Source of the DNA: Erythrobacter sp. EC-HK427 | Lineage (GTDB): Bacteria; Pseudomonadota; Alphaproteobacteria; Sphingomonadales; Sphingomonadaceae | NCBI RefSeq assembly: GCF_902498745.1 | Contig: NZ_LR701479.1 | Coordinates: forward strand, 2,005,663 to 2,069,662 | Direction: 5' to 3' | DNA length: 64,000 nt | Part shown: one piece after another, positions 1,579 to 4,384 of the stretch | Numbering within the stretch: position 1 is the first letter of the stretch | How the letters are laid out: every line of letters begins with the position of its first letter | Notes under the pieces: generated by a model | What the model saw: the letters and a program-made list of their open reading frames with translations, nothing else | Database searches by the model: none | What the model was told of the DNA's origin: nothing | Made by a program: the position numbers and the translations under genes

Positions 1579-2438
1579 TGCCCACAACCCCTTCGTCATC
1601 CCGGCGCAGGCCGGGAACCAGAATGGCGCTGCGCCTGCTCTGGTTTCCGGCCTTCGCCGGAATGACGGGATGTGGAGGGGCGCTGGAAACCGAGCGTGCC
1701 TCTACCCACCCCACAATCGTCAGCCTTAACCCCTGCGCCGATGCGATCCTGCACGAGGTCGCCGCGCCCGGGCAATTGCTCGCTGTCTCGCATTACAGCC
1801 ACGATCCCGGCGCCACCTCGATGGTGCTGGCGGACGCGCTGCAATACAAGGCCACCGGCGGCACGGTGGAGGAAGTGCTCGCGCTCGCCCCCGATATCGT
1901 TGTGGCCGACACTTTCCTTGCCCCTGCAACGCGAGAAGCGCTGGAGGCGGCGGGAGTTGCCATCGTTTCGGTGGGCATGGTGTCCTCGCTGGAGGACAGC
2001 TTGGGGCAAATCGCTCTGCTGGGCGAGACGGTTGGCGCGCCGGAGCGGGCTGCGCTGCTGGCGGGCACAGTGCAATCGGCGTGGGACAATGCCGCCAGCG
2101 ATGCCGCGCCGGTTGCCACGCTGCTTTGGCAGGATGGCGGCATCGTTGCAGGCGAGGGCTCGCTCGCGTTCGCGCTGCTGGAGCAGTCGGGCTTTACCAG
2201 CCACTCCGCCGCGCGCGGGTTGGGGCAGGGCGCTTACCTGCCGCTGGAACAGGTGCTGGCCGATCCGCCAGAGCTGATCCTTGCTTCGGGCGGCGAGCGG
2301 GTGCTGACGCACCCGGTGCTCGGCGCGCTGGACGGGGTGCGTTACGCCACGTTCGACAGCGCGCTGCTGTATTGCGGCGGGCCGACCATTCCGCGCGCGT
2401 TGGAGCGCCTCGGCGAGATTAGGCGGCAAGCAGGATGA
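1578..2438 (+). CDS. btuF: Periplasmic cobalamin-type substrate-binding protein (BtuF-like lipoprotein)
   Basis: The body matches BtuF-like binding proteins: TIVSLNPCADAIL, then VLALAPDIVVADTF. Two starts are possible. ATG 1578 overlaps the receptor stop (TGATG) and suits translational coupling. ATG 1623 has no good ribosome binding site but gives a compact lipoprotein signal, MALRLLWFPAFAGMTGC, with Cys as the lipidation site. From either start the hydrophobic signal core is encoded by a palindromic repeat (1594-1667). The stop overlaps the btuC start (ATGA). The protein would deliver substrate to the BtuC/BtuD complex. Heme cannot be excluded as the ligand. Confidence 0.82.
   Translation: MPTTPSSSRRRPGTRMALRLLWFPAFAGMTGCGGALETERASTHPTIVSLNPCADAILHEVAAPGQLLAVSHYSHDPGATSMVLADALQYKATGGTVEEVLALAPDIVVADTFLAPATREALEAAGVAIVSVGMVSSLEDSLGQIALLGETVGAPERAALLAGTVQSAWDNAASDAAPVATLLWQDGGIVAGEGSLAFALLEQSGFTSHSAARGLGQGAYLPLEQVLADPPELILASGGERVLTHPVLGALDGVRYATFDSALLYCGGPTIPRALERLGEIRRQAG
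1594..1667. repeat. 74-bp palindromic repeat inside btuF reading frame
   Basis: The arms CGTCATCCCGGCGCAGG... and ...CCTTCGCCGGAATGACG are imperfect inverted copies of about 28 bp around a short loop holding ATG 1623. Repeats with this CGTCATCCCGGC core are, from memory, common between genes in Sphingomonadales. Here the right arm is translated as LWFPAFAGMTG and forms the BtuF signal peptide. Confidence 0.85.
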
Positions 2439-3403
2439 ACCGCGCCACTCTCATTTTCGGCGGCCTCCTCGCGCTCGCCATCCCGCTTTCGCTGCTAGCG
2501 GGGCGCGTGTGGCTTGACCCGGCGAGCACGCCCAATGCCGCGCTGATCCTCGCCGAATTGCGCCTGCCGCGCGCGGTGCTCGCGGTGGTGATTGGTGGCG
2601 GGCTGGGCGCGGCGGGCGCGGCGATGCAAGGCTATTTACGCAACCCGCTCGCCGATCCCGGCCTGTTCGGCATTGCGCCGGGCGCGGCGCTGGGCGCGGT
2701 GATGGCGCTGACATTTGGCGTGTCGTGGAACCTGCTGCTGACCGGTTCGGCGCTGGCGGGCGCGGCGGGAGCGATGGCGCTGCTCGCGCTGATCGCGGGA
2801 CGCACCGCCAGCCCTGCCAATGGCATCGCGCTGTTCACGCTGGCGGGCATGATGATTGCGAGCCTTGCGGGCGCGCTGACCAGCCTTGCCATCAGCCTTG
2901 CCCCCAATGCCTTCGCCATGAGCAGCATTGTCACCTGGCTGATGGGCGCGCTGACCGACCGCAGCTGGGCCGATGTGCAGCTCGCCGCGCCGCTGACGCT
3001 GGCGGGCGTGCTGGTGCTGTGGAGAGTGGGCCGCGCACTTGATGCGATGACGTTGGGCGAGGCGGCGGCGCGCTCGATGGGGGTCGATCCCAAGCGGCTG
3101 ATGTGGGCGATGGTGCTGGGCACCGGCCTCACCGTGGGCAGCGGCGTGGCGGTTGCGGGGATCATCGGCTTTGTCGGCCTGATCGTGCCGCATCTGGTGC
3201 GCCCGCTCACCGACAAGCGCCCTTCCAGCCTGATCGTGCCATCGGCGCTGGCAGGCGCGCTGCTGGTGCTGGTGGCGGATGTGGTGTGCCGCATCCTGCC
3301 GCTGGTGACCGAGCTACGGCTGGGCATCGCGCTAAGCCTGATCGGCGCGCCGTTCTTCCTGCTGCTGCTGTTGCGGATGCGTGCTTCGACAGGCTCAGCA
3401 TGA
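2435..3403 (+). CDS. btuC: Cobalamin-type ABC transporter permease (FecCD/BtuC family)
   Basis: A 322-residue, very hydrophobic protein of the FecCD family, with the usual size for a ten-helix permease. Family-typical stretches are LRLPRAVLAVVIGGGLGAAG near residue 40 and GFVGLIVPHLVRP near residue 245; the latter lies in the region that contacts the ATPase. It starts inside the btuF stop (ATGA overlap), so the genes are translationally coupled. The last residues, RASTGSA, and the stop codon lie in a short dispersed repeat (3381-3407), so the native C-terminus may have been replaced. It should form the inner-membrane channel with the BtuD-like ATPase. Confidence 0.9.
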   Translation: MNRATLIFGGLLALAIPLSLLAGRVWLDPASTPNAALILAELRLPRAVLAVVIGGGLGAAGAAMQGYLRNPLADPGLFGIAPGAALGAVMALTFGVSWNLLLTGSALAGAAGAMALLALIAGRTASPANGIALFTLAGMMIASLAGALTSLAISLAPNAFAMSSIVTWLMGALTDRSWADVQLAAPLTLAGVLVLWRVGRALDAMTLGEAAARSMGVDPKRLMWAMVLGTGLTVGSGVAVAGIIGFVGLIVPHLVRPLTDKRPSSLIVPSALAGALLVLVADVVCRILPLVTELRLGIALSLIGAPFFLLLLLRMRASTGSA

Positions 3404-3407
3404 GCGG
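3381..3407. repeat. 27-bp dispersed repeat at the btuC/btuD junction
   Basis: GTGCTTCGACAGGCTCAGCA followed by TGAGCGG is a form of the CTTCGACA(A/G)GCTCAG repeat that I recall as widespread between genes in alphaproteobacteria. Here it encodes the last residues and stop codon of btuC and runs into the GGAGG ribosome binding site of btuD (3406-3410). Confidence 0.75.
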
Positions 3408-3416
3408 AGGTTGGTT

Positions 3417-4154
3417 ATGATTCTCGCTTGCGAAGGTCTTACGGTCGAGCGTGGCGGCACGGCCATTCTGGATGGCGTCACCGCGTCGCTGATCCCCGGC
3501 GATATCACCGCGATTTGCGGCCCCAATGGCGCTGGCAAATCGACGCTGCTTTCAACGCTGGCCCATCTGATGGAGCCCGCTGCGGGCAGCGTTACCCTGA
3601 GCAACAAGCCGGTGGGCGCGATGCATCCGCTCACCCGCGCGCGCAACATCGGCTATCTGCCGCAAACGGGCGAAGTCGCGTGGGATGTGGCGGTGCGCGA
3701 TCTGGTGGCGCTGGGCCGCCTGCCGCACCGCGATGCGGGCGAGGCGGAAGTGCGGCAAGCGATCGGCATTTGCGATCTGGATGACCTCGCCCATCGTCCC
3801 GTCTCCACGCTGTCGGGCGGGGAGAAGGCGCGGGCGTTGCTGGCGCGGGTGCTGGCGGGCCAGCCGCAATGGATCCTCGCCGACGAACCGCTCGCCGCGC
3901 TCGATCTGGCGCACCAGCTGGCGATGCTGCGTGTGCTGCGGAGCGAGGCCGAGGCGGGCTGCGGCGTGGTGTTGGTGCTGCACGATCTGGCGCTGGCGAT
4001 GAACCACGCCGACCGCGTGCTGGTGCTCGACAAAGGGCGGCTGGTGGCGGACGGCATTCCGGAAGAGGCGCTTTCCGGCGGCACCATCCGAGAGGTGTGG
4101 GGCGTCGATGCGCACTGGATCGGCGAAGAGGGCGCTCGGGCGCTGGTGTATTAG
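3417..4154 (+). CDS. btuD: Cobalamin-type ABC transporter ATP-binding protein
   Basis: 245 residues with a complete ABC ATPase set: Walker A GPNGAGKST (35-43), signature LSGGEKARALL, Walker B ILADEPLAALD, and the switch His in VLVLHDLALAMNHADRV. Start ATG 3417 has GGAGG six bases upstream; an upstream in-frame GTG lies in the dispersed repeat and is less likely. It is the last gene of the receptor-btuF-btuC-btuD operon and should power substrate import from the periplasm. Confidence 0.92.
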   Translation: MILACEGLTVERGGTAILDGVTASLIPGDITAICGPNGAGKSTLLSTLAHLMEPAAGSVTLSNKPVGAMHPLTRARNIGYLPQTGEVAWDVAVRDLVALGRLPHRDAGEAEVRQAIGICDLDDLAHRPVSTLSGGEKARALLARVLAGQPQWILADEPLAALDLAHQLAMLRVLRSEAEAGCGVVLVLHDLALAMNHADRVLVLDKGRLVADGIPEEALSGGTIREVWGVDAHWIGEEGARALVY

Positions 4155-4380
4155 GGTTCACACGAAGAACACAAAGCCACGAAGATGTGGCACACACACG
4201 CGCCGTAGGCGCAATATGTTTCGCGCAGAGTCCGCAGGGAACGCGGAGGGTCGTGGCCAAAAAAAACTCTGTGCTCTCTGCGATCTCTGCGCGAAATTAT
4301 CGATTGCCTGCGGCGCAAAGAAAGGGGGCGATGCCAAGCACCGCCCCCTTCGTGTCTTCGTGGTCTTCGTGCGAACCGTA
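4155..4380. repeat. ~220-bp nested imperfect palindrome (composite repeat)
   Basis: This gene-free stretch is one nested inverted repeat. The outer arms are ACACGAAGAACACAAAG (from ~4160) and CTTCGTGTCTTCGTGGTC (ends ~4375). The next layer is GCGCCGTAGGCGCAA against TTGCCTGCGGCGCAAAG. The inner layer is TTTCGCGCAGAGTCCGC against GATCTCTGCGCGAAA. It lies between convergent genes (btuD rightward, the M3 peptidase leftward). No transposase is encoded. Confidence 0.8.
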
Positions 4381-4384
4381 AACC

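Follow-up and report, generated by a model that had tools for sequence, protein, structure and literature searches.

Rickettsia palindromic elements, whose description is attributed to Ogata et al. in 2000, are reportedly palindromes that lie in frame inside conserved genes. Here we analyse a palindromic repeat localised at the 5'-end of btuF, the predicted gene of a cobalamin-binding lipoprotein, in a stretch of 64,000 nucleotides from Erythrobacter sp. EC-HK427 (contig NZ_LR701479.1, positions 2,005,663 to 2,069,662 of the forward strand); this whole stretch is called the window, and its positions are used throughout. A preliminary description of the window had proposed that the right arm of this repeat supplies the BtuF signal peptide. 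We propose that the repeat, a head-head dimer of CGTC-tagged repetitive extragenic palindromic (REP) units, is very probably the signal peptide of the BtuF lipoprotein, and that the peptide has been kept by selection more than the palindrome.

The sections of Di Nocera et al. (2013, PMC3733652) that define the CGTC-tagged REPs give them a CGTC tag, a stem of 8-9 bp starting from AT, a loop of 4-5 nt and a CCA tail, and describe head-head dimers. These REPs are found near stop codons, usually less than 20 bp away, as well as inside genes; in E. litoralis and S. alaskensis these include tRNA synthetase genes and the TruB gene. The view expressed there is that N-terminal REPs may be misannotations or have no effect, and the term "signal peptide" is absent from the main text. 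The same source counts the Rickettsia elements RPE-4 and RPE-6 among the CGTC REPs and equates the Neisseria dRS3 repeat with CGTC-1. In Yersinia, the passages on the RU-2 repeat, a 168-bp miniature inverted-repeat transposable element, connect it with one putative exported protein, YPO1552 (Delihas 2007, PMC2759123, PMC2229807). Intragenic REPs were known, and so was a mobile repeat as part of a signal peptide.

Results

The REP dimer extends over 74 bp (1594-1667), begins 15 nt past the btuB stop codon and lies within the 5'-end of btuF. Its exact coordinates, its two inverted units and its stable fold confirmed the palindrome of the preliminary description: the RNA fold of positions 1590-1671 had -59.4 kcal/mol vs -31.7 ± 3.4 kcal/mol for shuffled sequences (z -8.2), and none of 200 shuffles was as good. 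An inverted-repeat search of 1400-1900 with default settings listed none; mismatches break the palindrome that the fold reveals. CGTC is found at 1594 and GACG ends at 1667, giving both units a terminal tag, and each unit has an 8-nt stem with seven of the eight positions paired (G-U counted), a 4-nt loop and a CCAG tail; the right unit bears one tail-side change, TTT instead of ATT. The arrangement with the tags outside (head-head) was common to the window dimer and 18 other dimers of the genus. The repeat is dispersed: the same genome contained five other dimers (C2:1343090, 1344203, 2105956, 2222046 and 2431170) and one half copy at 1979339, and an 81-base query of the repeat, at E up to 1e-4, matched 17 of the 40 genus genomes. 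Judging from these characters, the window repeat is a member of the CGTC-tagged REP superfamily (dRS3/RPE superfamily); this superfamily, described in PMC3733652, is a correction to the preliminary description, which spoke of an intergenic-type repeat.

Some other dimers of the genus lie in frame inside conserved genes, namely those for valyl-tRNA synthetase (L218:1022-1103) and TruB (L217:1019-1097) of genome G002 and for the beta subunit of glycyl-tRNA synthetase (L010, L216 and L200). The dimer at L010:1501-1556 (G000:C2:2431170) is a short one belonging to the window genome; that of G013 (L216) occupies about the same inter-domain region, and that of G003 (L200) is elsewhere in the gene.

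Translated on the forward strand, the left unit (1594-1621) gives a basic n-region, (S)SSRRRPGTR, the spacer (1622-1639) holds the ATG at 1623-1625, and the right unit (1640-1667) gives a hydrophobic core, (L)LWFPAFAGMT. The lipobox cysteine (1671-1673, in MTG followed by C) matched a PROSITE-type pattern and is the predicted residue 1 of the mature lipoprotein. The reading of the right arm (LLWFPAFAGMT) as the hydrophobic core beside the lipobox Cys was thus borne out.

BtuF was found in 37 of the 40 genus genomes, and all 37 5'-ends were examined. The full dimer formed the signal in eight of them (G000, G002, G007, G011, G016, G018, G032 and G039), the right unit alone in one (G020, L053; RRRRWIPAFAAMTVAAC, 17 residues), and the other 28 had different signals, of 12-19 residues where measured. 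The ordinary BtuF signals of the genus are very short, the commonest having 13 residues ahead of the lipobox Cys. The btuF gene of G020 may represent a trimmed stage of a repeat-derived signal; its assembly contains two near-full rpoB genes on different contigs and may be mixed. In the wider family, a BtuF match was present in 143 of 249 genomes, four of these in the genus. We examined 80 5'-ends from 79 genomes of other genera, the best 60 outside the genus by rank plus 20 more chosen partly because their matches reached the N-terminus; nine of the 80 had the repeat, two in degenerate form, a figure from a selected sample that is not a prevalence. The eight genus copies and these nine are called carriers below.

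A frame-blind scan of the btuF 5'-ends with the arm pattern found no additional dimer and none in another frame. Counted from the conserved core, the reading frame stayed open for at least 239 codons in each of the eight genus carriers. In a search with profile A2, trained on btuF, of the 40 genus genomes (among the matches listed) and the 249 family genomes (E up to 1e-9), all full matches with long frames, that is, from model position 5 or earlier through 37 in an open frame of more than 300 codons, were btuF; full matches in short frames (G016:C201, G171 and G263) and partial ones such as G003:C1:634343 were not. The frames at 26 loci with other dimers (two loci yielded none) gave no clear signal peptide, although a profile trained on btuF leaves room for others.

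A positive n-region, an uncharged hydrophobic core and a lipobox Cys, as in lipoprotein signals, were found together in the repeat-derived peptide. Of the 17 carriers, 16 had the lipobox pattern, among them the window, as did 33 of the 35 others, a group to which G020 was assigned. Among the rows with a lipobox, the mean charge of the n-region was +4.7 in carriers vs +1.2 in others, and the signal had a mean length of 35.6 vs 14.9 residues. The n-region had a charge of +5 in the window and was positive in 16 of the 17 carriers; in G223 it was 0, the automatic core window having fallen upstream of the repeat. The Tat motif is RRx-phi-phi; RR occurred in 13/17 carriers and the motif in 0/17, and a Tat signal was rejected. 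Lipoproteins are exported and lipidated by way of Sec, Lgt and signal peptidase II, and the BtuF of carriers would follow this route.

The likely start of btuF in the window is TTG 1575-1577, overlapping the btuB stop, or ATG 1578-1580, both on the forward strand. A btuF start coinciding with the stop codon of a long preceding frame, assumed to be btuB, was found in 52 of 57 sequences searched, comprising 17/17 carriers and 35/40 others; none was found for G012, G037, G022, G036 and G124. The xTGA overlap of start and stop was kept in 16 of the 17 carriers, the remaining one being off by 3 nt, and in 33 of the 35 others. The spacer had an ATG in two of the 17 carriers and some in-frame ATG, GTG or TTG in nine, with none in eight. 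Because the start position upstream of the repeat is kept and spacer starts are not general, both arms are likely coding, and the whole repeat is most likely read, probably as MPTTPSSSRRRPGTRMALRLLWFPAFAGMTG followed by the lipobox Cys. Of the earlier reading, with the right arm as hydrophobic core and lipobox and ATG 1623 in the loop of the repeat, the right unit as core and the in-frame position of that ATG in the spacer stood; that ATG is not the likely start, and the left unit, on which the preliminary description was silent, is probably coding too.

The same description had named two findings that would speak against it. One, orthologues with the same peptide from unrelated DNA, was not encountered: those lacking the repeat had unrelated signals with no WFPAF-type peptide, and in G020, the one case that departs in part, the DNA in question is a right REP unit. 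The other, a start past the repeat, had no candidate in the window, where no in-frame ATG, GTG or TTG occurs between the repeat end and TIVSLNPC. An in-frame ATG at 1662 belongs to the final codons of the right unit and a start there would leave no signal; some in-frame start codon past the repeat exists in 13/17 carriers, and its use would also abolish the signal.

When the spacing of the two units is a multiple of three in the signal frame, SSxRRR of the left unit and WIPAFAGMT of the right unit are read together. This spacing was found in 17/17 btuF copies vs 5/18 other dimers (Fisher 7e-6), and in 8/8 with the genus carriers alone (Fisher 0.0016); in-frame insertion does not by itself need this spacing, other frame pairs also being open. 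The 18 dimers came from the DNA searches; L227, one of 19 full-length non-btuF places retrieved, lacked a match to the arm pattern and was left out. Compared with the nearest REP subtype, the codons of the right unit showed 15 silent changes, with 6.4 expected (p 0.0005), and lacked charged residues and stops (p 0.0013); G032, whose right unit is identical to that of G039, was left out of this comparison. Third codon positions took 19 of 36 changes (p 0.012). The complementarity of the arms, over 28 positions, was 25.2 in the other dimers (n=18), 20.4 in btuF of other genera (p 1e-4) and 24.1 in btuF of the genus (p 0.09, not significant); this set of 18 differs slightly from the former, the short L010 dimer being out and L213, found by the profile, in. 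Likeness among carriers was 0.64 in the right arm vs 0.57 in mature btuF at third positions of unchanged codons, and 0.73 vs 0.50 at all third positions, values on which we do not lean. Because the frame is kept, silent changes are in excess and the palindrome has decayed in other genera, these three observations together indicate that the signal peptide is under selection, as far as can be judged from comparing the copies.

In the rpoB tree (35 rows, seven carriers), the trait needs six changes, at least four of which are required by well supported branches; no rpoB match was available for G018, one of the two rpoB copies of G020 was dropped, and G019 and G025, with no BtuF match, were scored as non-carriers. 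The BtuF protein tree (37 rows) needs seven changes, at least five forced, and a single carrier clade was rejected. A tree of 57 rows, the 37 of the genus plus 20 hand-picked others including nine carriers, needs 13 changes, at least 11 forced, and one gain would require 27-28 losses. The carriers were not clustered beyond shuffled labels: 192 of 500 shuffles were as low for the rpoB tree, 237 and 239 for the BtuF protein tree and 66 for the 57-row tree. Stems of two subtypes, CCGGC- and CCCGC-type, occurred among the btuF copies. The nearest compared sequence of 14 of the 17 btuF copies was a REP from elsewhere and not another btuF copy, a result that has to be read knowing that the other dimers were tried in either orientation and are near the consensus, and thus expected to be close; G039 and G032 were nearest each other, and G244 ties. 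An IS200/RAYT-type mobiliser was not indicated by the distribution of the tyrosine transposase family Y1_Tnp (PF01797), which by presence counts only was found in 3 of 40 genus genomes and neither in the window genome nor in seven of the eight carriers of the genus.

The predicted btuBFCD operon is encoded on the forward strand. The 3' part of btuB, for a TonB-dependent cobalamin receptor, occupies 13-1578 (stop TGA 1576-1578; the 5'-end precedes the window) and matched TIGR01779 (TonB-B12) with 5.6e-63 and 213 bits, under the cut-off of 600, the gene being truncated by the window. The btuF gene (1575-2438) has the Peripla_BP_2 domain (PF01497, 1.4e-17) beside btuB, btuC, btuD and cobalamin control; against the NCBIfam BtuF equivalog NF002894 its product scored 20.1 bits, the cut-off being 234, and its assignment is based on the operon and the fold family (BtuF-like), not on that model. 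The btuC permease gene (2435-3403) matched NF003001 (BtuC) with 8.3e-55, under the cut-off, and the btuD-type ATPase (3417-4154) was recognised by ABC ATPase families and operon position, with no ABC ATPase family above its own cut-off among the matches listed. The vitamin B12 reading is supported, despite the NCBIfam cut-offs not reached for BtuB, BtuF and BtuC, because the same genome has, 405 bp ahead of the window start, a cobalamin riboswitch (RF00174, 133 bits).

Another repeat was observed at a gene junction within the btu operon: TTCGACANGCTCAGNNTGAGCGG (3385-3407), a second dispersed repeat just before btuD, encodes the C-terminus of BtuC (..STGSA) together with the stop codon, and has 54 places in the genome at up to two mismatches, with 0 for a reversed control. 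Nested inverted repeats, with 34-nt arms 85% complementary and 30-nt arms 80% complementary, were found 3' of the btuD stop (4151-4381).

Discussion

The takeover of a palindrome as the BtuF export signal, suggested in the preliminary description, is supported as far as sequence comparison can test it. The dimer would have landed 15 nt past the btuB stop, a typical place for such repeats, and because btuF overlaps btuB this landing zone would fall within the codons of the BtuF signal peptide. One reading frame of the dimer would be a ready-made lipoprotein signal, with the basic left unit, the uncharged hydrophobic right unit and then the lipobox Cys, and it would replace the ordinary 12-19 residue signal of relatives; selection would then have retained the peptide more than the palindrome.

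Some observations weigh against this interpretation. G056 has no lipobox Cys. The best 10-residue hydrophobicity of the core had a mean of 1.85 in carriers vs 2.61 in other BtuF signals (rows with a lipobox), and with this less hydrophobic core export could be weaker. The carriers are related, so that the 17/17 are not independent trials and the p-values are weakened; the nearest of ten subtypes stood in for each ancestral right unit, under an assumed mutation model. Finally, the genus copies are not significantly decayed, and the palindrome there may also be selected. This last point touches the alternative that an RNA role maintains the REP, protecting the end of the btuB mRNA or tuning btuFCD, with the in-frame reading only tolerated. 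The hairpin is very stable, the stems of genus carriers are nearly intact, and the relevant passages of PMC3733652 consider that REPs past stop codons act as RNA; nevertheless, the palindrome decays in other genera where the peptide character is retained, and btuF holds no other signal peptide, which make an RNA role rather unlikely.

It seems quite improbable that only the right arm is used, with translation from ATG 1623, a 16-residue signal (MALRLLWFPAFAGMTG) and the left arm as an untranslated leader. The length of such a signal would be ordinary, G020 does have a signal of the right unit only, and nine carriers have some in-frame start codon in the spacer; against this, the eight carriers with none, the rarity of a spacer ATG and the start at the btuB stop in all carriers show that a spacer start is not general, and the frame from left to right, kept in 17/17, would be needless for an untranslated arm. 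That the BtuF of carriers is decaying or no longer exported is very remote: the missing Cys of G056 and the one TGA counted inside the protein matches of G056 and G244 point that way, and they are opposed by the open frames of at least 239 codons in all eight genus carriers and by those of G056 (239) and G244 (238).

The history of the repeat is a separate matter from its reading as a signal, and here we infer several insertions rather than one old one. A single ancestral insertion with vertical descent, many losses and, in places, gene conversion with other REPs is doubtful, but it has points in its favour. Palindromes are prone to deletion. In 12/17 carriers precisely 19 nt separate the start codon from the beginning of the repeat, the spacing is 72 in eight of the nine carriers of other genera, and G020 resembles a partial loss. 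It is opposed by the 27-28 losses needed, vs 13 free changes, by the closeness of 14 of the 17 copies to REPs from elsewhere (G039 and G032 matching mutually and G244 tying) and by the presence of both stem types. A landing preference would reconcile the constant place with many insertions: nine of the 18 other dimers lay 6-22 nt past an open frame of 190 codons or more, with 0.28 expected elsewhere in the same loci. These limits were, however, chosen after viewing the data, and the L217 dimer among the nine runs antisense to truB and is a doubtful case. Repeated insertion into this landing zone, filtered by frame and with some losses, is thus the favoured account from these comparisons, although not proven. 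Taken further, we give even chances to the idea that the selfish repeat is, through an accident of its symmetry, a portable signal, basic on the left and hydrophobic on the right in one frame, which was installed independently several times at one btuF spot in the genus and related genera, refined by selection and once trimmed (G020).

If true, nature would here offer a replicated example of selfish non-coding DNA turned into a functioning targeting signal of a conserved transport protein, with a bearing on the origin of signal peptides and on the survival of REPs. It would speak against treating N-terminal REPs by default as annotation errors, and the copies, at differing stages of decay, would form a series tracing how a palindrome turns into a peptide. 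In the literature searched, which was mostly outside subscription journals, we found neither an account of REP-derived signals recurring in a single conserved lipoprotein nor, among the titles and abstract openings listed, one on a REP or palindrome serving as BtuF signal.

The dimers inside tRNA synthetase and TruB genes of the genus parallel the cases in E. litoralis and S. alaskensis given in the corresponding part of PMC3733652. The Rickettsia palindromic elements are described, in the passages that treat them, as tolerated inserts and not as export signals, and the passages on the dRS3 repeats of Neisseria make no connection with signal peptides, in contrast to what is proposed for the btuF repeat. 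The YPO1552/RU-2 case is alike in that relatives have unrelated signals, according to the passages on this protein (PMC2759123, PMC2229807). It concerns a single protein, whereas here a REP dimer would supply most of the n- and h-regions, recurrently, in one conserved lipoprotein.
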